From positions 186,001 to 250,000 of the forward strand of contig NZ_AUGD01000003.1 of assembly GCF_000426845.1 (NCBI RefSeq): 64,000 nt of DNA, written 5' to 3'. The notes below the pieces were generated by a model that saw only the letters and a program-made list of their open reading frames with translations, was not told the DNA's origin and did no database searches. Below, one piece after another: positions 30,631 through 63,126 of this stretch. This DNA comes from Bradyrhizobium sp. in8p8 (GTDB lineage: Bacteria; Pseudomonadota; Alphaproteobacteria; Rhizobiales; Xanthobacteraceae). A program made the translations under genes and the position numbers. Position 1 is the first letter of the stretch. The number at the start of each line of letters is the position of its first letter.

Positions 30631-30645
30631 TTAATCGCGTCTTAA
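30631..30645 (+). promoter_or_regulatory. CtrA-binding box upstream of the dapC-like / ftsK operon
   Basis: TTAATCGCGTCTTAA is an exact match to the full CtrA motif TTAA-N7-TTAA and is followed by CC, as in TTAACC. It lies about 90-100 bp before the first gene of a block that includes ftsK, a cell-division gene under CtrA control in Caulobacter. Confidence 0.7.
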
Positions 30646-47553: not shown

Positions 47554-48441
47554 CTACAGCGCGCCCTTGGCCAGCCGCTTCATCACCTCGTCGAGCTGAT
47601 CGAGGTTGCGGTAGTTGATCTGCACGGAGCCGCCGGGATCGCGGTGGTTGACGGTGACCTTGAGGCCGAGCGCGTCGCTGACGCGCTTCTCCAGATCGAT
47701 CGTGTCAGGATCCTTTTCCTTGCCACCGCTGGCGCGCGCCTTCTGCGGCTTGCGCTCGGGCACACCCTCTTCATGCGCCAGCGCCTCGGCCTGGCGAACG
47801 TTGAGGCCCTCTTCGACGATGCGCTTGGCGGCCGCGAGCGGATCCGGCACGCCGATCAGCGCACGGGCGTGACCCGCGGTCAGCTCGCCGGTTGCGATGA
47901 AGGCCTGCACCTCGGCCGGCAGCTTCGTCAGCCGCATCATGTTGGCGACGTGGCTGCGGCTCTTGCCGACGACCTTGGCGATGTCCTCCTGGCTGCGTTT
48001 GAACTCGTTGGCGAGCGCGTGATAGCCCTGCGCCTCCTCCATTGGGTTGAGATCCTCGCGCTGCACGTTCTCGATGATCGCGAACTCCAGCGCATCGCTG
48101 TCGCTGATATCGACGGGGACGATCGGCACCTCATGGAGACCGGCCATCTGCGAGGCGCGCCAGCGCCGCTCGCCGGCGATGATCTCGTAGCGGTCCTGCA
48201 CGCCCTTCACCGGGCGCACCACGATCGGCTGGATCACGCCGTGCTGCTTGATCGAATCGCTGAGCTCCTTCAGCTCGGTGTCCGAAAAGGTACGGCGCGG
48301 ATTGCGCGGGTTGGGCTTGATGAATTCGATCGGCACCTTGCGCTGCGCGCGCGGACGATCGACATGCTGCGCCTCGCCGCCGACATCACCGATCAGACTC
48401 GCAAGACCTCGGCCCAGTCGCGAACGCGCTTCGTCGGCCAT
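47554..48441 (-). CDS. parB: Chromosome partitioning protein ParB
   Basis: 295 residues from ATG 48441, preceded by GGGAG. The N-terminus MADEARSRLGRGLASL is the conserved ParA-stimulating Arg motif; GERRWRASQMAG is the CTP-binding motif, and an HTH (about 140-200) binds parS. It loads at parS and spreads as a CTP-driven sliding clamp. Five perfect parS sites lie 2-4 kb to the right. parA is upstream, separated by a palindromic repeat. Confidence 0.96.
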   Translation of the reverse strand: MADEARSRLGRGLASLIGDVGGEAQHVDRPRAQRKVPIEFIKPNPRNPRRTFSDTELKELSDSIKQHGVIQPIVVRPVKGVQDRYEIIAGERRWRASQMAGLHEVPIVPVDISDSDALEFAIIENVQREDLNPMEEAQGYHALANEFKRSQEDIAKVVGKSRSHVANMMRLTKLPAEVQAFIATGELTAGHARALIGVPDPLAAAKRIVEEGLNVRQAEALAHEEGVPERKPQKARASGGKEKDPDTIDLEKRVSDALGLKVTVNHRDPGGSVQINYRNLDQLDEVMKRLAKGAL

Positions 48442-48488
48442 CGCCAGCTCCCTTGGATTCAACTCGAACGCTCCTGCTACTCTGGTCC

Positions 48489-48604: not shown

Positions 48605-49474
48605 TCAATGCGTCGTTCGCAGCTCGCGCTCGCGCTGGATCACCTCGGTCGCAAGCCGCAGGTAAGCTTCGCTGCCGACGCATTTGAGATCGTAGACCAG
48701 CACCGGCTTGCCGTAGGACGGCGCCTCCGAGATGCGCACGTTGCGCGGGATCATGGTCTTGTAGACCTTCTCGCCCATGAACTGGCGCACATCGGCGACG
48801 ACCTGGTTCGAGAGGTTGTTGCGCGAGTCGAACATGGTCAGCACGATGCCGTGGATCGACAGGTTCGGGTTGAGCGTCGAGCGCACCTGCTCAACGGTCT
48901 GCAAGAGTTGCGACAGACCTTCGAGCGCGAAGAACTCGCATTGCAGCGGCACCAGGATCGCATCTGACGCAGCCATCGCGTTGACGGTGAGCAGGTTGAG
49001 CGAAGGCGGGCAGTCGATCAGAACATAGGTGTAGTCGGCGTCGGGCGAGACGTTGTTGTTCAGCGCGCCGATCGCATCGCGCAGCTTGAAGGCGCGGCCG
49101 GGTGTGGTGCCAAGCTCGAGCTCGAGGCCGGAGAGGTCCATGGTCGAGGGCGCGATGTGCAGCCGCGGCACCGCGGTCGAGACCACCGCTTCGCGCAAGG
49201 CGGCTTCGCCGACCAGCACGTCATAGGTCGAGAGGGAGCGGTTGCGGCGGTCGATGCCGAGCCCGGTCGAGGCGTTGCCCTGGGGATCGAGGTCGACGAT
49301 CAGGACGCGCTCGCCGATTGCAGCGAGCGCCGTGCCAAGATTGATCGCTGTGGTTGTCTTTCCCACGCCGCCCTTTTGATTCGCCAGCGCAAGGATGCGC
49401 GGGTGGCCGTGCGGGACCTCCGCTGCCTTGTCCTGGGCCGACTGTTCTTGGCCTGGTTCGTCAATCACGCTCAT
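48605..49474 (-). CDS. parA: Chromosome partitioning ATPase ParA
   Basis: 289 residues. The deviant Walker A is QKGGVGKTTTAIN; the other Walker motifs VDLDPQGNAS and VLIDCPPSLNLL follow. There is no N-terminal HTH, so this is the chromosomal (Soj-type) form. ParA-ATP coats the nucleoid and pulls ParB-parS. ATG 49474. It lies 28 bp after rsmG on the same strand, in the conserved mnmG - rsmG - parA - parB order. Confidence 0.97.
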   Translation of the reverse strand: MSVIDEPGQEQSAQDKAAEVPHGHPRILALANQKGGVGKTTTAINLGTALAAIGERVLIVDLDPQGNASTGLGIDRRNRSLSTYDVLVGEAALREAVVSTAVPRLHIAPSTMDLSGLELELGTTPGRAFKLRDAIGALNNNVSPDADYTYVLIDCPPSLNLLTVNAMAASDAILVPLQCEFFALEGLSQLLQTVEQVRSTLNPNLSIHGIVLTMFDSRNNLSNQVVADVRQFMGEKVYKTMIPRNVRISEAPSYGKPVLVYDLKCVGSEAYLRLATEVIQRERELRTTH

Positions 49475-49502: not shown

Positions 49503-50276
49503 TCAGCCTCGCCGTTCGGCGGACGTCAGCTCCACGATCCACCCGTCCCCGGTTCGGCTTGGATGCAGCTTGGGCTGGATATTCCAATATTTAGTGGCTT
49601 CGGTCAATTCAGCCTCTACATCTTGACCTTTCGGAAACAATGCCTTTGCGCCTTGGCGCATGAGGGGCTCCGCAAAGCCGATGAGTTGATGTAGCGGAGC
49701 CAGTGCACGCGCGGTGACGCAATCGACGGGGCCGGTGATTCTATCCACATTATCCCCGATCTCAGCGAGATGTACGACTCCCGGAGATGTGGTGACGCGG
49801 ATCGCTTCGCGCAAAAAGGCAGCCTTCTTCGCGATTCGCTCGACGAGGTGGACGCTCGCGCCCGGCTTGCCCGCCATCACACAGGCGAGGACCACGCCTG
49901 GAAAACCGCCGCCGCTGCCGAGGTCGGCCCAGCGTCTTGCAGTCGGCGCGAGATCGACGAGCTGAAGGGAGTCGGCGATGTGCCGTGTCCAGAGGTTTGG
50001 CAGTGTCGAAGGCGCGACCAGATTGGTCTTGGATTGCCACTCGCGGAGCAGCGCGATGTAGCGATCGAGGCGGACCTCTGTTTCATGTGAAACGGGCGCG
50101 AGCTTGAGCGCGGCGACCTTGTCGGCCGCGATGATCGCGTCGAGCGATCGATCGTTGGCGCTGGCCTTCTCGATCTTCGGTCTGGGCGGTCCTGGCTCAG
50201 CGTGCCCACCGGCGCCCTCGCCTGCCGTTGGCCGCCGCGAGAGCGGTCGTTCCCCACCCGGTCCGCGCTGTTTCAC
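49503..50276 (-). CDS. rsmG: 16S rRNA (guanine-527-N7)-methyltransferase
   Basis: Up to 257 residues; the conserved part starts near residue 60. SAM-binding motif LGSGGGFPGVVLAC and the family's LRDWQ/N-like LLREWQSKTNLVA are clear. It methylates G527 of 16S rRNA. The only plausible initiators are GTG codons; the one at 50276 lies within a perfect parS site. The N-terminal 55 residues are Pro/Gly/Ala-rich and may not be translated. It lies 9 bp after mnmG. A degenerate parS (50080-50093) sits in its coding region. Confidence 0.9.
   Translation of the reverse strand: MKQRGPGGERPLSRRPTAGEGAGGHAEPGPPRPKIEKASANDRSLDAIIAADKVAALKLAPVSHETEVRLDRYIALLREWQSKTNLVAPSTLPNLWTRHIADSLQLVDLAPTARRWADLGSGGGFPGVVLACVMAGKPGASVHLVERIAKKAAFLREAIRVTTSPGVVHLAEIGDNVDRITGPVDCVTARALAPLHQLIGFAEPLMRQGAKALFPKGQDVEAELTEATKYWNIQPKLHPSRTGDGWIVELTSAERRG
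50080..50093. promoter_or_regulatory. Degenerate parS site inside rsmG
   Basis: GTTTCATGTGAAAC differs at one position from the parS core GTTTCACGTGAAAC. It may be a weak ParB site. Confidence 0.55.
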
Positions 50277-50283
50277 GTGAAAC
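50270..50283. promoter_or_regulatory. parS: parS site at the mnmG-rsmG junction
   Basis: GTTTCACGTGAAAC is a perfect core palindrome, in the 16-mer TGTTTCACGTGAAACG. It overlaps the GTG that could start rsmG. Confidence 0.92.
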
Positions 50284-50285
50284 GC

Positions 50286-52166
50286 CTATGCGATTGCCTT
50301 GGAATTCTTCCGAGCTTCACGGCGGAGATACGCCGCAAGGATACCGAGCGCCGCCGGCGTCATACCATCGATGCGGCCAGCTTGGCCGACCGTGAACGGG
50401 CGCGCCTTCTCCAGCTTGGCACGGACCTCGTTGGAGAGACCGGGGACCATCTGGTAATCGACCTCCGACAGAACCAACCCCTCGTCGCGCCGGAAGGCCT
50501 CAACGTCCGCACTCTGGCGCTCCAGATAGACGTCGTACTTGGCGTCGATCTCGAGATGCGTGGCGATAACCGGATCAACCGCGGCCAGCTCCGGCCAGAT
50601 CGCGCGGACTTGGCTCCAGCCGATCTCGGGATACGCCATCAGCTCGAAGGCGGAGCGGCGTTGGCCGTCCCGATTGAGTGAAAGGCCGTGCTTGATTGCC
50701 TCGTTCGGGGTGATGGTCAGAGACTTCGACAGTGCTCGGGCCGCATTCAGGGCGTCCATCTTGGTGCGGTGGTGCCGGGTTCGAGCCCTGCCGACACATC
50801 CCAAGGCGATGCCCTTCTCTGTCAGACGCTGGTCCGCATTGTCGGCCCGTAGCGTCAAACGATACTCGGCCCTGGAGGTGAACATCCGATAGGGCTCACT
50901 GATCCCGCGGGTGACGAGGTCATCGATCATCACGCCAAGATAGCCGTCAGCCCGGTCGAACACCGTCAGCGCGGCCCCACTGGCGGACAAGGCCGCATTC
51001 AGGCCGGCCACGATGCCCTGCCCGGCGGCCTCCTCGTACCCGGTGGTGCCATTGATCTGCCCGGCCAGGAACAGGCCGCGCAGCCGCTTGGTCTGCAGGG
51101 TCGGATCGAGCTCGCGGGGATCGATGTGGTCGTACTCGATGGCATAGCCCGGGCGGACCATCTTCACCCGCTCCAGACCGGGAATGCTGGCGAGGATCGC
51201 GAGCTGAACTTCCTCGGGAAGCGATGTCGAGATGCCGTTGGGATAGACCGTGCTTTCGTCGAGCCCTTCCGGCTCCAGGAAGATCTGATGGCCATCCCGA
51301 TCGCCAAAGCGGACGATCTTGTCCTCGATCGAAGGACAATAGCGCGGACCGGAGCTCTTGATCTGCCCGGAATACATCGGGGATCGATGCACATTGGCCC
51401 TGATCACCTCGTGGGTGACGGTTGTGGTCCGGGTGATGCCACACTGGATTTGCGGGGTCGTGATCCGTTCGGTCATCACCGAGAACGGCTCTGGCGGATC
51501 GTCTCCGGGCTGCATCTCGACTGCAGACCAGTCGATCGTGGTGCCGTCGAGGCGCGGCGGCGTCCCGGTCTTGAGGCGTCCGAGTGTAAAGCCGGCGCGC
51601 TCAAAGGAGCCGGAAAGACCCATCGCCGGCGCCTCGCCAACCCGACCTGCGGGCCAGTTCTTTTCTCCCAGATGGATCAGACCGCGGAGGAAGGTCCCTG
51701 TGGTGACTACGACGGCCCCTGCCCGGAGCTCGCGGCCATCAGCCAGGCGCAGTCCGGTCACCCGGCCGTCGGCCGTAATCAGCTCGTCGGCTTCCCCCTC
51801 AATGACGGAAAGACCCTCGGTCTCCAAGATGGCGGCTTGCATGGCAGCCGCATAAAGCTTTCTGTCCGCCTGGGCCCGGGGACCGCGGACGGCCGGACCC
51901 TTCCGGCGGTTGAGCACCCTGAACTGGATGCCGCCGGCGTCACCGACACGGCCCATCAGACCATCGAGCGCATCAACTTCGCGGACCAGATGCCCCTTGC
52001 CCAGGCCGCCGATGGCCGGATTGCAGGACATTGCGCCAACGGTGGAGAAACGATGCGTTACCAGAGCGGTCAAGGCGCCCATCCGGGCCGAAGCGGCCGC
52101 AGCTTCACAGCCGGCGTGGCCGCCGCCAATCACGATGACGTCGAAACTTGCTCGCTCTGTTCGCAT
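50286..52166 (-). CDS. mnmG: tRNA uridine-5-carboxymethylaminomethyl modification enzyme MnmG
   Basis: 626 residues. FAD-binding motif [21 protein letters not shown] at the N-terminus, then the family motif [23 protein letters not shown] with a conserved Cys, and a helical C-terminal MnmE-binding domain (about 560-620). With MnmE it modifies U34 of tRNAs reading split codon boxes. ATG 52166. It lies 470 bp downstream of mnmE on the same strand, with the parS-rich spacer between. Confidence 0.97.
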
Positions 52167-52220
52167 AGGGGACTTCTAGCTCAGGGGCGGAAAAGCGGGA
52201 AGCGGAAACTGGAAGCGGCT

Positions 52221-52234
52221 GTTTCACGTGAAAC
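52221..52234. promoter_or_regulatory. parS: parS site
   Basis: GTTTCACGTGAAAC lies in a full 16-bp consensus TGTTTCACGTGAAACA (52220-52235). Confidence 0.95.
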
Positions 52235-52262
52235 ACGAGCCACGCGGGTGGCGGATGTTTTC

Positions 52263-52288
52263 GCGAAAACAACCCCATGCACAGTAGA
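52263..52288. repeat. 26-bp block shared with 19478-19503
   Basis: These bases, starting GCGAAAACAACC and ending GCACAGTAGA, are identical to 19478-19503 on the same strand. The flanks differ, so it is a conserved core of a dispersed element. Confidence 0.85.
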
Positions 52289-52309
52289 GGGAGCCTCGGG
52301 AAACCCGGT

Positions 52310-52323
52310 GTTTCACGTGAAAC
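52310..52323. promoter_or_regulatory. parS: parS site
   Basis: GTTTCACGTGAAAC, in the 16-mer TGTTTCACGTGAAACG (52309-52324). Confidence 0.94.
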
Positions 52324-52332
52324 GAAAGAGGG

Positions 52333-52425
52333 CGTCATTGCGAGCGCAGCGAAGCAATCCGGATCCTCCGATCCTCCGCACCGAGAAGCTGGACTGCTTT
52401 CTCGCAAAGGCTGCGCGCAATGACG
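52333..52425. repeat. Dispersed palindromic repeat, family A, copy 3
   Basis: CGTCATTGCGAGCGCAGC and GAAGCAATCC (52351-52360) match copies 1 and 2; the right arm is degenerate (GGACTGCTTT) but the end CAATGACG is kept. It lies between two parS sites. Confidence 0.82.
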
Positions 52426-52507
52426 AGCATCGAGGAGTGAATGGAGCGCTGCCGATGCCACCTAGGCCAGTCGATCTCCTCAAGTCGATTGCAGACCACA
52501 TCCTCGT

Positions 52508-52521
52508 GTTTCACGTGAAAC
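52508..52521. promoter_or_regulatory. parS: parS site
   Basis: GTTTCACGTGAAAC lies in a full 16-bp consensus TGTTTCACGTGAAACA (52507-52522). Confidence 0.95.
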
Positions 52522-52582
52522 AGAGCCGCCCCGGTTGGCAAGATGACGGCGTTCCACCTAGCACGTGAAACGAAACCCCCAC

Positions 52583-52596
52583 GTTTCACGTGAAAC
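52583..52596. promoter_or_regulatory. parS: parS site
   Basis: GTTTCACGTGAAAC, in the 16-mer CGTTTCACGTGAAACA (52582-52597). A half-site GCACGTGAAAC lies about 20 bp to its left. Confidence 0.93.
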
Positions 52597-52639
52597 ACAA
52601 GAAATGGAACAAGGGCTAATCTAGAGTGAAGACCTAGCG

Positions 52640-54194: not shown

Positions 54195-55460
<1,266 letters not shown>

Positions 55461-55716
55461 TGGGATGGTCCTGTGGGGTAACCTGAAAAGAGGGGGGTGC
55501 GAGGAGGCTCTGAAATGCGGACGCGAGCAGGTGCAGGTAAGGTCCGCAGGTCTGGCAAGGTGAGCGCCGGTGAGGCTTCAAACCTGATGCGGTGTCCGGC
55601 CTCTGGAAAGCTCGGACACAACCACATCCGCCTGCGTTGGGTGGGATGTCGACAATATAGAAAATCGCTCCCCGCTCCGCAAGCCGAAGCGCTGAGCTAA
55701 TCGTCGCGCGTGTCGC

Positions 55717-56151
55717 CTAGAACGGCTTCACGATCACCATGATGACGATGAAAATCATCAGAACAGTCGGCACCTCATTGATTATTCGATAGAATTTCTG
55801 GCTTCGCGGGCGACGGTCGGCGGCGAAATCCTTCAGCCAGCGCGAAAAAAAGCCGTGAACCGCGGACAGCGCGAGGACCAGTGCCAGTTTTACGTGCAGC
55901 CAGCCGAACGAGAACCAATGGCCGGACCAGGCGAGATAGAGCCCGGCAAGCCAGGTGACGATCATCGCGGGGTTGATGATCGCCTTCAGCAGCCGACGCT
56001 CCATAATCTTGAACGTCTCCGACTGCTTCGAGCCGATCTCGGCCTCGCAATGGTAGACGAACAGCCGCGGCAGATAGAGCATGCCGGCCATCCAGGCGAT
56101 GACCGCGATCACGTGCAGCGCCTTGATCCAGAGATAGACGTCTTCGAACAT
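55717..56151 (-). CDS. hemJ: Protoporphyrinogen IX oxidase HemJ
   Basis: 144 residues with four membrane helices. The conserved His of the N-terminal ALHVIAVIAWMAGMLYLPRLFVYH and the later Lys/Arg-rich loop are typical of HemJ (formerly UPF0093/DUF). It oxidises protoporphyrinogen IX in haem synthesis. It is the last leftward gene before the candidate origin. In many relatives hemE lies beside it; hemE is not present here. Confidence 0.9.
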   Translation of the reverse strand: MFEDVYLWIKALHVIAVIAWMAGMLYLPRLFVYHCEAEIGSKQSETFKIMERRLLKAIINPAMIVTWLAGLYLAWSGHWFSFGWLHVKLALVLALSAVHGFFSRWLKDFAADRRPRSQKFYRIINEVPTVLMIFIVIMVIVKPF

Positions 56152-56609
56152 TTTCTGTGCCCGGATTGATGCCAGCTCGGAGAACGCTGGGGATAGTAAG
56201 AACTCGTTAAGGTCTCACCCCGCACACATATCCATCCCAAGGGCCTTCCTCAAATCTAGAATCTTAGATTCTTAAGGTTTGAGTCTATGTGACCGTGGAT
56301 TGGACTCATGCAATTCCATCCGCGAGTTCACGCGTGCTTTTTCACATCCATCCACATATCCCGGATCGCGCCGGCGATTTCCGATAAGCCGGTCGGACTC
56401 AAGACCTTGCTCCCGCCTGTCGGCAGCTTGTCAAGAGAGTTGTCCGCGCAATCCCGCTTCCATCTCGGCAGGGCGCCGAACTTGTTCCGATGGGCAGCGG
56501 TGTGAAGAAAATTGGCCGTTGTCCCGCCCCTGGTGTCGCACATCCCTTTACGAGGGGTTAAGCTCCACAGAAATCCACAAACCACCCCAACGAAATTCAA
56601 AGGGTTTTT
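56152..56609. other. oriC: Candidate chromosomal replication origin (oriC)
   Basis: 458 bp without a gene, between hemJ (leftward) and the PPDK regulator gene (rightward). In Caulobacter oriC lies just before the homologue of that regulator gene. The segment holds two DnaA-box-like 9-mers 10 bp apart, TTTTTCACA (56338-56346, fits TTWTNCACA) and CCATCCACA (56348-56356), plus AAATCCACA (56571-56579). An AT-rich inverted repeat (CTCAAA/TTTGAG around AGAATC-TTA-GATTCT, about 56250-56283) and five GANTC sites (56259, 56267, 56281, 56303, 56396) are present. No full CtrA box is found here. Confidence 0.6.
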
Positions 56610-57449
56610 GTGCCGACCTCGAACAATTATTTCCATCTGCATCTGGTCTCGGACTCCACGGGAGAGACGCTCATCACCGTGGCGCGGGCGGTTGCGGCCC
56701 AGTACGCCAACGTGACGCCGGTCGAGCATGTTTATCCGCTGGTGCGCAGCCAGAAGCAGCTCGACCGCGTGCTCGATGAGATAGAGGAGGCGCCGGGGAT
56801 CGTCCTGTTCACGCTGCTCGAGAAGGATCTGGTCTCCAGGCTCGAGGACAAGTGCAAGGAGATCAATGTTCCCAGCCTGTCGATCATCGGCCCGGTCATG
56901 CAGCTGTTCGAAGCCTATCTCGGGGCCGCGACCACCGGTCGTGTGGGCGCCCAGCACGTCCTCAATGCGGAATATTTCAAGCGGATCGACGCTTTGAATT
57001 ACACGATGATCCATGACGATGGTCAGCATGTCGAAGGTCTCGACGAGGCCGACGTGGTGTTGGTCGGTGTGTCCCGCACCTCGAAGACGCCGACATCGAT
57101 CTATCTTGCCAATCGCGGCATTCGCACTGCCAACGTGCCCCTGGTTCCAGGCATTCCGGTACCCTCGCAACTGGAAACATTGACGCGACCGCTGGTGGTC
57201 AGCCTGCATGCGACGCCGGAACGCCTGATCCAGATCAGGCAGAATCGCCTGCTTTCCATGGGCGCCGATTCCGGCAGCGACACTTATACCGACAAGCAGT
57301 CGGTTACCGAGGAGGTCGCGTTCGCGCGCAAGCTGAGTGCCAAGCACGACTGGCCGTTGCTGGATGTCACGCGCCGCTCGATCGAGGAGACTGCGGCGGC
57401 GATCATGAAGCTCTACAGTGATCGCCAGCGCAACCGGCCCTCCGAGTAA
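56610..57449 (+). CDS. Pyruvate, phosphate dikinase / PEP synthase regulatory protein
   Basis: 279 residues of the DUF299/PPSR family. [13 protein letters not shown] opens the protein and the P-loop-like [18 protein letters not shown] lies near residues 150-170. It phosphorylates and dephosphorylates pyruvate dikinases in response to ADP. GTG 56610 is preceded by AAAGGG. Next to the candidate oriC it heads the rightward group; the same gene (RP001 homologue) flanks oriC in Caulobacter and Rickettsia. Confidence 0.93.
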
Positions 57450-57458
57450 GGGTCGGCG

Positions 57459-58067
57459 ATGGGTCTGTGGCGCGGCACATCTCCGTTGATCCTGGCCTCG
57501 CAGAGCAGCGCTCGCAAGATGCTGCTGGGCAATGCTGGCCTCGAATTCAAGGCGATCACGGCTGATATCGACGAGCGCGGCATTCAAGCTGCGTCCAGGC
57601 TGTCGAACCCGCGCGAGATTGGCCTGCTGCTGGCGGGCGAGAAAGCCAAGGCGGTTTCGGCGGGTCATCCCGGGAGCTACGTGATCGGCGCCGATCAGAC
57701 GCTGGCTCTTGGAACGCGTCTCTTCAACAAGCCTTCGGGCCGCGCACAAGCGCTGGCGCAATTGCGCGATCTTGCCGGAAAGACCCACGAGCTGAATGCC
57801 GCTGTGGCCGTCGCGCGTGACGGCACGATCGTTTTCGAGGATGTCTCGGTCGCCCGCATGAGTATGCGAGAGATGACCGATGCCGAGCTTTCGGCTTATC
57901 TCGACGCTGCCGGCGATGCCGTCACGACCAGTGTTGGGGCGTATCAGCTCGAAAGTCTCGGCATCCACCTGTTCGAACGGATCGAGGGCGATCATTTCAC
58001 CATTCTCGGCCTGCCGCTGCTGCCGCTGCTTGCGTTCCTGCGCCGCGAACGGCTAGTTGCGGTGTGA
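57459..58067 (+). CDS. maf: Maf-family nucleoside triphosphate pyrophosphatase
   Basis: 202 residues. The Maf motif LILASQSSARKMLL lies at the N-terminus, and the metal-binding GADQTLALG and the Lys of the later loop are conserved. Maf hydrolyses non-canonical NTPs. It starts 9 bp after the PPDK regulator gene and is followed 23 bp later by coaE, so they form an operon. aroE, found between maf and coaE in some alphaproteobacteria, is missing. Confidence 0.93.
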   Translation: MGLWRGTSPLILASQSSARKMLLGNAGLEFKAITADIDERGIQAASRLSNPREIGLLLAGEKAKAVSAGHPGSYVIGADQTLALGTRLFNKPSGRAQALAQLRDLAGKTHELNAAVAVARDGTIVFEDVSVARMSMREMTDAELSAYLDAAGDAVTTSVGAYQLESLGIHLFERIEGDHFTILGLPLLPLLAFLRRERLVAV

Positions 58068-58090: not shown

Positions 58091-58690
58091 ATGCGGATTC
58101 TCGGACTGACCGGCTCGATCGGGATGGGGAAATCGACCACCGCGAAATTATTCGCAGAGGCCGGCGTCCCCGTCTACGATGCCGATGCCGCTGTCCATCA
58201 GCTCTATGAGGGTGAGGCGGCGCCCGCGATCGAGGCCGCTTTCCCCGGCACCACCGCGAACGGCAAGGTCGACCGACAAAAACTGTCGGCGCGCGTCGTC
58301 CATGATCCCGCCGCGATCAAGCAGCTCGAGCAGATCGTTCATCCGATGCTGGGTGCTTCCAGGCAGAAATTCTTCGCCGATGCCGAGACCGCCAACGCGC
58401 CGGTCGTGGTGCTGGACATCCCGCTGCTGTTCGAGACCGGCGGAGAGAAGCGGGTCGACGCCGTCGTCGTGGTCTCCACCTCGCCCGAACTCCAGCGTCA
58501 GCGGGTGCTCGCGCGCGGGACGATGGACGAGGCAAAGCTGGACGCCATCATCGCCAAGCAGATGCCGGACGCCGAGAAGCGAAAGCGCGCCGATTTCGTG
58601 GTGGATAGCTCACACGGACTTGAACCGGTGCGGGCGCAGATCGCGCACATCCTGGCGGAGGTCGTTAAGATGCCGCAGCGGCGAGCCTGA
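58091..58690 (+). CDS. coaE: Dephospho-CoA kinase
   Basis: 199 residues. P-loop [14 protein letters not shown] at residues 6-20, the CoA-binding [17 protein letters not shown], and the lid region. It makes the last step of CoA synthesis. ATG 58091. Neighbours maf and dnaQ are co-directional and close. Confidence 0.95.
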
Positions 58691-58721
58691 TTCGCGCCGC
58701 GGCACACGGCTTCCTAAAGAC

Positions 58722-59444
58722 ATGCGCGAAATCGTCCTCGATACCGAAACCACCGGCCTCGATCCGCTCCGCGGCGATCGCCTGGTCGAAATCGGCTGCG
58801 TCGAGATCTTCAACCGCATGCCGACGGGACAGAGCTTCCACGTCTACATCAACCCTGAACGGGACATGCCGGCGGAAGCCTTCGCGGTGCACGGATTATC
58901 GTCCGAATTCCTGGCGACGAAGCCGCTATTCCACGAGATTGCCGACGAGTTTCTGGAGTTCATCGGCGACGCGCCGCTGGTGATCCACAACGCCTCGTTC
59001 GACATCGCCTTCATCAATGCCGAGCTTGACCGCATCAAGCGTGCCGCAATCCCGCGCGAGCGGCTGGTGGACACGCTGCTGTTGGCGCGGCGCAAGCATC
59101 CCGGCGTGTCCAACCGGCTCGACGATCTCTGCTCGCGCTATGCGATCGACAATTCGCACCGCACCAAGCACGGTGCGCTGCTGGACGCCGAGCTGCTGGC
59201 TGAAGTCTATGTCGATCTGGTCGGGGCGCGGCAGTCGCAGCTGCTGCTGGCTGCGGAAGGCGAGGAGATCCGGGTCGCCAGCGCGGGCGATGCGCCGCGG
59301 CGGCAGCGTCTGGTGCCGCTCGCGCCGCGCATTACGGAAGCCGAGCGCGAAGCCCATCGGGCCTTCATCGCAACCCTCGGCGACAAGGCGATCTGGAACG
59401 AGTACCTGCCCGCTCCAGCCGCGGCGGTCGCCGCTCAGGCCTGA
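58722..59444 (+). CDS. dnaQ: DNA polymerase III epsilon subunit (proofreading exonuclease)
   Basis: 240 residues. The DEDDh exonuclease motifs are visible: [11 protein letters not shown] (Exo I), [13 protein letters not shown] (Exo II) and [14 protein letters not shown] (Exo III). The C-terminus is Pro/Ala-rich. It proofreads replication. ATG 58722 is chosen; the longer open frame upstream is a shadow of coaE. It overlaps secB tail to tail by 10 bp. Confidence 0.95.
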
Positions 59445-59920
59445 CCGGCTTGACCCTGAGCGGCCATTTGCCGCTCCATGTTCTGGCGATAGAGACCGAC
59501 GAAGTCGACCGGGTCCAGCATCAGCGGCGGGAACCCGCCGTCCCGCACCGCGGTCGCGATGATCTCGCGTGCAAACGGGAACAAGAGGCGCGGGCACTCG
59601 ATCATGACCAGCGGGTGCAGGTTCTCCTTCGGCACGTTGGCGATCCGGAACACGCCGGCATAGGCGAGCTCGAAGGAGAACATCACCTTGGCCGCGGCCT
59701 CGGCCTTGCCCTCGATCGACAACGTCACCTCGAACTCCTGTTCGCTGAGATTGTTGGCGCTGACGTTGATCTGGATATTGATCTGCGGCGGCTGGTTCTG
59801 CTGCTGGAGCGAGCTCGGCGCGTTGGGATTTTCGAATGAGAGGTCCTTAGTGTATTGCGCCAGCACATTGAGCTGGGGAGCCTGGGCCGCCTCGGGAGGG
59901 GTGCCGTTACCGTTGGTCAT
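59435..59920 (-). CDS. secB: Protein-export chaperone SecB
   Basis: 161 residues. The tetrameric chaperone signatures [16 protein letters not shown] and [32 protein letters not shown] are clear. SecB keeps preproteins unfolded and delivers them to SecA. AAGGAGAG lies just before ATG 59920. It converges with dnaQ and diverges from the Tim44-like gene. Confidence 0.96.
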
Positions 59921-62539: not shown

Positions 62540-63126
62540 AACGGTCGTCCCGTCCGCCCGCGCTGGAGCCTCGCCCCTCGCCGCGTCGCCGCGCGCTGAG
62601 CGAGGAGGATCGCGAGCTGTGGGACCTCGTGGCAAAGCAGGTCAAGCCGCTGAAGAAGCACCGCGCTGCAAAGGCGCATGCCGCGCCGCGCGCCGAATTG
62701 CCGCCCACCGCGCCTGCCATGCGATCCGCGTCGTCGCCACGGTCGGTCGCCGCTGCCCCGGCGCCGCGCCTGCCAAAACCGTCTGTCCCGCCGCTTGCGC
62801 CGATCGGCAAGCGCGAGCGGACACGGCTGTCGCGCGGCCGCAGCGAGATCGAGGCGCGGCTCGATCTGCACGGCATGACGCAGATGCGTGCCCATCGCGC
62901 CTTGTCCGGCTTTCTCCACCGCGCCCATCATGATGGCCTGACCTTCGTGCTCGTCATCACCGGCAAGGGCCGCAGCGGCGGCGAAAGCGGCGTGCTGCGC
63001 CGTCAGGTGCCGGAATGGCTCAGCCTGCCGGAATTCCGCGCCTTCGTCGTCGGCTTCGAGCAAGCCGCGATCGGCCATGGCGGCGAGGGCGCGCTGTATG
63101 TGCGGATCCGGCGGGCGAGGATTTAG
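62536..63126 (+). CDS. Smr domain protein
   Basis: 196 residues. A basic Pro/Ala-rich N-terminus (about 1-95) precedes a Smr domain with the signature LDLHGMTQMRAHRALSGFL and TGKGRSGGESGVLRR. Smr domains are nicking nucleases acting on DNA or RNA. Its ATG overlaps the mltA stop (ATGA), so the two are translationally coupled. Tim44-like, mltA and smr form one operon. Confidence 0.93.
   Translation: MKRSSRPPALEPRPSPRRRALSEEDRELWDLVAKQVKPLKKHRAAKAHAAPRAELPPTAPAMRSASSPRSVAAAPAPRLPKPSVPPLAPIGKRERTRLSRGRSEIEARLDLHGMTQMRAHRALSGFLHRAHHDGLTFVLVITGKGRSGGESGVLRRQVPEWLSLPEFRAFVVGFEQAAIGHGGEGALYVRIRRARI

Follow-up and report, generated by a model that had tools for sequence, protein, structure and literature searches.

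The stretch of DNA analysed here, called the window in the following, comprises 64,000 nucleotides (C3:186001-250000) of a Bradyrhizobium genome of 7.59 Mb in 52 contigs. It contains a candidate oriC, the intergenic region of 458 bp (56152..56609) between hemJ (55717..56151, minus strand), which stands where other families carry hemE, and the gene of a PPDK/PEPS regulator (DUF299/COG1806; 56610..57449, plus strand). Both edges of the gap abut these genes directly. The COG1806 protein shares 99% identity with its counterparts in named Bradyrhizobium strains, in line with the assignment to this genus. With 46.5% AT it is AT-richer than the genome, as 0.8% of 458-bp windows in C3:1-400000 reach the same value. 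Beyond hemJ, rho (54195..55460, minus), mnmE, mnmG, rsmG, parA (48605..49474, minus) and parB (47554..48462, minus; nearest solved relative the chromosome-partitioning protein ParB 6t1f, E 1.1e-69) all read leftward, and on the right the regulator gene is followed by a maf-like gene (57459..58067, plus), coaE (58091..58690, plus) and a DnaQ-like exonuclease with an RNase_T domain (open frame 58179-59444, plus), before secB (59435-59920) reads leftward again. The divergence of genes on which the earlier note had built its proposal of an origin is thus real up to secB.

The gap itself was searched for other signals. A scan with Rfam found no family in 56152-56609, and a scan for sigma-70 promoters and terminators, with other promoter types outside its range, found nothing there. 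Elsewhere in the window, a ZMP/ZTP riboswitch (RF01750, 5892-5973, plus) and the sRNA BjrC68 of Bradyrhizobiaceae (RF02353, 30455-30536, plus) were recognised. The gap possesses three TTAA half-sites and, as had been claimed, no full CtrA box of the type TTAA-N7-TTAA, because the sole exact copy in the window sits at 30631. A Caulobacter G-box, which we take to be TGATCCACA, was not found in the gap at up to one mismatch. The AT-rich inverted repeat described before was found as AGAATCT-T-AGATTCT at 56258..56272, with one GANTC in each arm, and would form part of a presumed unwinding block.

For conservation, the gap of the window was aligned with the hemJ-COG1806 gaps of 80 further Bradyrhizobium loci, giving 81 rows, which are not independent since the strains, with COG1806 proteins 89-99% identical, are mostly close relatives. 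Eleven additional loci of the genus (L194-L204) served for gene order and the search for hemE only and stand outside the alignment. The hemJ-COG1806 gap persists in 80 of 80 loci with a size of about 449-524 bp, as judged from match edges.

Five clustered GANTC sites had been reported within about 140 bp, and all are present, at 56259..56263 (kept in 64 of 81 gaps), 56267..56271 (81 of 81), 56281..56285 (80 of 81), 56303..56307 (80 of 81) and 56396..56400 (12 of 81, unconserved). The background in the window amounts to 135 sites per 64 kb, or one per 474 bp, and the contrast is therefore larger than with the one per 290 bp assumed in the earlier note; at least five GANTC in 142 bp occur at two places in C3:1-400000, the gap being one of them. 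The enrichment is nevertheless modest by base-shuffling of the gap (five against a mean of 1.7, P 0.032), and to speak of five sites was an overstatement, because two of them are poorly conserved; taken as one set, the five do not clearly exceed chance in conservation (P 0.065). Over all 81 gaps the mean is 4.49 GANTC per gap versus 1.76 after shuffling. Methylation of this motif is documented in the genus, with 99.77% of GANTC methylated in free-living B. diazoefficiens (PMC4840208), and several GANTC were reported for the origins of Caulobacter and its near relatives (PMC3973325). The host genome encodes one RAMA domain over the cut-off, in a 377-codon frame that is CcrM-like by this domain alone.

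DnaA boxes were scored by their mismatches to TTATNCACA, of which no perfect copy exists in the 519-kb contig. The three DnaA-box-like 9-mers named earlier were all recovered on the plus strand: TTTTTCACA at 56338..56346, a position where 75 of 81 gaps show TTGTTCACA (98.9th percentile of gap 9-mers in conservation); the weak CCATCCACA at 56348..56356, where CCATCAACA occurs in 49 of 81 and CCATCCACA in 13 of 81 gaps (85.6th percentile); and AAATCCACA at 56571..56579, kept in 71 of 81 and replaced by GGATTCACA in the seven loci L078-L084 (92.2th percentile). Two more were found on the minus strand, namely TTCTTCACA at 56501..56509 (kept in 73 of 81, with TTGTTCACA in 7; 98.4th percentile) and the weaker CTATCCCCA at 56188..56196, which is of average conservation only (50th percentile). 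The number of boxes, however, is unremarkable at the AT content of the gap: five sites with at most two mismatches stand against a mean of 3.1 in gap shuffles (P 0.21) and of 2.7 in contig windows that match its AT content, and 400 kb hold eleven clusters with at least five such sites. Two boxes at no more than one mismatch are rarer, being present in 0.2% of windows of 458 bp and forming three clusters over 400 kb. Motif counts by themselves consequently make a weak case for an origin, and since the box count does not exceed that of shuffles, conservation was used as evidence in place of it. The five boxes jointly surpass random 9-mers of the same gap in conservation (P 0.0011), the best two (56338, 56501) lie in the top 2% of gap 9-mers among the 81 Bradyrhizobium gaps, and those at 56338, 56501 and 56571 each keep one spelling in 71-75 of 81 gaps. 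One-mismatch boxes number two in 75 gaps, three in five and one in a single gap, compared with an expectation of 0.17 per 458 bp as estimated from 24 of the loci.

Conserved sequence between divergent genes could also reflect a two-way promoter region serving hemJ and the gene run of COG1806 and nothing else, with GANTC as GcrA/CcrM promoter elements. The divergent orientation of the flanking genes suits this reading, as do the three GcrA-family genes of the genome over the cut-off and the general over-representation of GANTC in alphaproteobacterial intergenic DNA (PMC3973325). Moreover, nearby gaps without an origin are equally or better conserved: columns at 95% conservation or more make up 33% of the candidate gap, 31% of mnmE-rho and 58% of rho-hemJ, with 6.6% in mnmG-mnmE (77 rows). 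Yet the sigma-70-like scan of the gap was empty, within the limits of promoter type given above, DnaA-like boxes of either strand are among its conserved elements, and in Caulobacter the origin occupies this very position (PMC1914354). Since promoter and origin roles can coexist, a promoter function would not speak against an origin, and we regard a promoter region alone as highly unlikely. The rho-hemJ gap (55461-55716) was the most conserved of five gaps compared and possibly holds a control element of the rho leader.

The position of the gap can be judged by comparison with better known genomes. In Caulobacter, independent methods have placed Cori between hemE and COG1806 (PMC1914354), in agreement with the earlier remark that this origin adjoins the homologous DUF299 gene, and the predicted origin of Rickettsia lies likewise between these two genes (PMC1914354). 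Sixteen genomes from other families of the order were searched for COG1806, of which 13 gave a match, that of G035 being weak, and three gave none, and nine of the 12 clear matches were examined as loci. All nine showed the order rho-hemJ-hemE-gap-COG1806-maf. The match in one other-family genome, G036 (C2:957851-958672), contains an internal TAG. In Bradyrhizobium, hemE was found in none of the 80 loci and in none of the eleven further loci of the genus; in the present genome it is situated on another contig (C11:79864-80868), where by eye it sits beside a frame resembling hemC. With hemE absent from the locus and the gap kept in 80 of 80 cases, hemE would therefore have left while the gap stayed with COG1806. 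As hemJ, rho, mnmE and mnmG are retained beyond the gap, we take the Bradyrhizobium locus to be the same one minus one gene, rather than the unchanged hemE/COG1806 type.

The nine gaps of other families share with that of Bradyrhizobium the position, the size (about 443-657 bp) and a pooled enrichment of GANTC (32 versus 14.8 after shuffling and 9.8 expected from flanks). Singly, seven of nine exceed the flank expectation, four of nine are enriched over their own shuffles at P <0.05 and two of nine have no GANTC. They differ in keeping hemE, in these two gaps without GANTC, and in possessing the word TTAA-N6to8-TTAA in five of nine. Several of them (among L185-L193) show by eye and with a loose pattern a common block of GANTC, T-rich sequence and GTGGAT-like motifs near the hemE end, which may be an old unwinding module. 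Compared with Cori of Caulobacter crescentus, the candidate is alike in its COG1806 neighbour, in a gap of ~400 bp AT-richer than the genome (PMC1914354), in DnaA-like boxes and in several GANTC (PMC3973325), but Cori adjoins hemE and holds five CtrA sites (PMC1914354), whereas the neighbour here is hemJ and a full CtrA site is missing from the gap. The predicted origins of Rickettsia and Wolbachia follow a similar logic of gene order and are likewise intergenic and AT-rich with few DnaA boxes (PMC1914354). Wolbachia, however, is unlike Bradyrhizobium, in that its predicted origin stayed with hemE and not with COG1806 (PMC1914354), and by analogy the origin could have moved with hemE to contig C11, given that hemE is gone from the locus. 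Around hemE on C11 there are three one-mismatch boxes over 7 kb, one of them within hemE, six GANTC in 4 kb without a dense group, and no parS at up to two mismatches on the contig. Together with the retention of the COG1806 gap in 80 of 80 loci, this makes such a move barely credible.

Sites for chromosome partitioning are clustered beside the gap. Perfect copies of TGTTTCACGTGAAACA, the parS consensus and a string contained in seven listed papers on parS and ParB, are situated at 52220..52235 and 52507..52522, copies with one mismatch at 50269..50284, 52309..52324 and 52582..52597, and a parS-like site with two mismatches at 50079..50094. The earlier statement that parS sites lie 4-6 kb away is confirmed by these six at 50079-52597, 3.6-6.1 kb from the gap. 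At up to one mismatch the entire 7.59-Mb genome holds five parS, all of them here (3.6-5.9 kb from the gap), and the cluster includes one of the three sites with two mismatches, the remaining two being located on other contigs. At least two sites at up to one mismatch occur in 76 of 80 relatives' loci; the other four loci end before that region. An independent paper has proposed that predicted alphaproteobacterial origins be corrected with parAB as the anchor (PMC8116508).

The same cluster bears on a published alternative, in which the parS-bearing gap next to mnmG/gidA (52167-52639) would hold the origin and TGTTTCACG would be the DnaA box. Ori-Finder (2008) placed the origins of Bradyrhizobiaceae next to gidA with this box, all of them with the palindrome TGTTTCACGTGAAACA, and close to the switch in GC disparity (PMC2275245). 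The word was reused for positioning the Oligotropha origin (PMC3091675) and for finding where the sequence of B. diazoefficiens starts (PMC4840208), and the site, 4 kb from the gap, is too near for skew to separate the two, with contig values of -1084, -1090 and -1108 at 236.0, 238.6 and 242.4 kb. But TGTTTCACG is half of parS: 439 of 455 occurrences (80 loci, each strand counted) fall into a parS palindrome at up to two mismatches, beside parAB, and it occurs in none of the 81 candidate gaps. Furthermore, the mnmG-mnmE gap of the window has no box at up to one mismatch (two at up to two) and no GANTC, and is the poorly conserved one with 6.6% of columns at 95% or more. We therefore consider an origin at gidA very unlikely. 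The Ori-Finder site (PMC2275245) belongs to the same neighbourhood, with its 'DnaA boxes' being parS halves; the published neighbourhood is probably right and the site 4-6 kb off. Because hemE is one of the indicator genes of Ori-Finder, its loss from the locus would have made this misassignment easy. That some automated oriC annotations mismatch the true origin was remarked in general terms in a paper of 2026 (PMC13342612).

GC skew, which the earlier note had named as a check, gave a mixed answer. The cumulative curve of the joined 519-kb contig reaches its minimum at C3:248961, which is position 62961 of the window and lies 6.4 kb to the right of the gap. A V-shape as deep arose in 12% of block shuffles (P 0.12), in a test that was if anything generous, because the observed curve was taken at finer steps (1 kb) than the shuffled ones (5 kb). 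The cumulative maximum is at C3:454223, beside dnaA. In a relative, G009, with the gap at 195 kb and dnaA at 0, samples taken at 60-kb spacing around the gap show a skew that is still declining at 120-140 kb and climbs again from 180 kb, so that the sampled minimum is at 140-180 kb. In G041 (NZ_CP030038.1; 60 samples), where the gap is at 219 kb, the minimum falls at 280-420 kb and the maximum at about 4.06-4.34 Mb; sparse octamer counts there put the minimum at 0.7-0.86 Mb.

The strand-biased word GGGGCAGGG switches strand at the terminus at 1.380-1.386 Mb in G015, 3.82-3.91 Mb in G009, 3.72-3.84 Mb in G008 and 4.60-4.70 Mb in G019, where for G008 and G019 the terminus switch only is covered, among the first 100 places listed. 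The origin-side switch of G015 falls within 5.309-5.727 Mb, an interval that includes both the gap (5.318 Mb) and dnaA. One plus-strand copy at 4.97 Mb in G015 and one minus-strand copy at 263 kb in G009 are on the wrong side of the gap. Under the presumption of equal arms, and with the length of G008 rounded and the terminus of G041 taken from samples, the distance between the gap and the point opposite the terminus is 14 kb in G015, 60 kb in G019, about 82 kb in G008, 117 kb in G009 and 217 kb in G041. Rough agreement with the gap was obtained from the contig minimum (6.4 kb) and from these five relatives (~14-217 kb), but the depth of the V-shape is not significant and a sixth genome, G021, disagrees. 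There, GGGCAGGG switches strand at 0.22-0.29 Mb versus the gap at 0.957 Mb, all seven copies of the word between 288 and 939 kb, to the left of the gap, have the wrong strand, and between 0.24 and 1.3 Mb the sampled skew stays flat. With a strand switch ~0.7 Mb from the gap (C1:220000-960000), G021 was rejected as support; an inversion is a possible explanation of the disagreement.

A further alternative puts the origin into the rpsT-dnaA gap, at a distance of about 209 kb, given that many bacteria have theirs beside dnaA. The host has one DnaA over the cut-off (C3:450804-452183), and upstream of its gene four one-mismatch boxes (452936, 453090, 453178 and 453509) lie within 582 bp, more than in the candidate gap; by eye, the frame that contains the box at 453509 is rpsT. 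At least two such boxes occur in 13 of 14 Bradyrhizobium upstream regions, its own included, and perfect TTATNCACA in six of 14. In G041 only 2 kb separate dnaA from the point opposite the terminus, and in G015 it shares the switch interval with the gap. Against this, the skew maximum of the contig beside dnaA is the opposite of what an origin should display, the skew of G009 is still falling from dnaA to 140 kb, there is no parS near dnaA at up to two mismatches, and dnaA is farther than the gap from the point opposite the terminus in G015 (213 vs 14 kb), G009 (313 vs 117 kb) and G008 (about 129 vs 82 kb). An origin at this site is hence distinctly improbable, and because of the skew maximum and the missing parS the boxes are read as probable autoregulation of dnaA, which they would fit. 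The near-consensus boxes of the upstream region (C3:452200-453510) vary between species. Another relative, G011, yielded two full dnaA matches of identical score (C16:436086 and C16:1022734), by duplication or as an artefact of assembly.

Synteny, conserved DnaA-like boxes, clustered parS and a nearby skew minimum together support the proposal of a chromosome origin in the gap, and 56152-56609 is very likely the chromosomal replication origin, where DnaA would bind and replication would fire. Judged from the sequence, DnaA would bind the conserved weak boxes at 56338 and 56348 (plus), 56501 (minus) and 56571 (plus), assemble there, and melt the AT-rich GANTC block next to hemJ, putatively at about 56200-56310. 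Two helicases would then be loaded and forks would depart both ways, co-directional on the left with rho and hemJ and on the right with the gene run of COG1806. The left fork would soon copy the parS cluster (50.1-52.6 kb), which ParB would bind, so that ParA could move the new origin away, and firing would leave the GANTC sites hemimethylated until CcrM refills them later. Parts for such a course are present in the host, namely DnaA, a RAMA domain as in CcrM and the three GcrA-family genes. It may further be imagined that the Bradyrhizobium origin is CtrA-free and CcrM-gated, so that the near-invariant GANTC sites and their palindrome need full methylation, or reading by GcrA, before DnaA can melt the block, in a manner like Dam/SeqA and, as the GANTC-rich hemE-COG1806 gaps would suggest, throughout the order. 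Gating by methylation is disfavoured, at least in Caulobacter, because cells of that species lacking CcrM were found to control initiation normally (PMC3973325), and we hold this extension to be unlikely.

No measured replication origin of Bradyrhizobium was among the literature matches listed, which cover the literature in part and are no proof of absence. The origin proposed here is very probably a known kind of locus, slightly rearranged, and its main value lies in a correction of the literature. It would give a nitrogen-fixing genus of major importance a precise oriC that can be tested, and it offers a reason for the probable 4-6 kb error of automated prediction: hemE is gone from the locus, and halves of parS passed for DnaA boxes. 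The near-invariant trio of GANTC sites makes methylation control of firing directly testable. The probably mistaken word TGTTTCACG served to fix where the sequence of B. diazoefficiens begins (PMC4840208), and correct coordinates of oriC matter for work on replication, ploidy and segregation and for origin plasmids.
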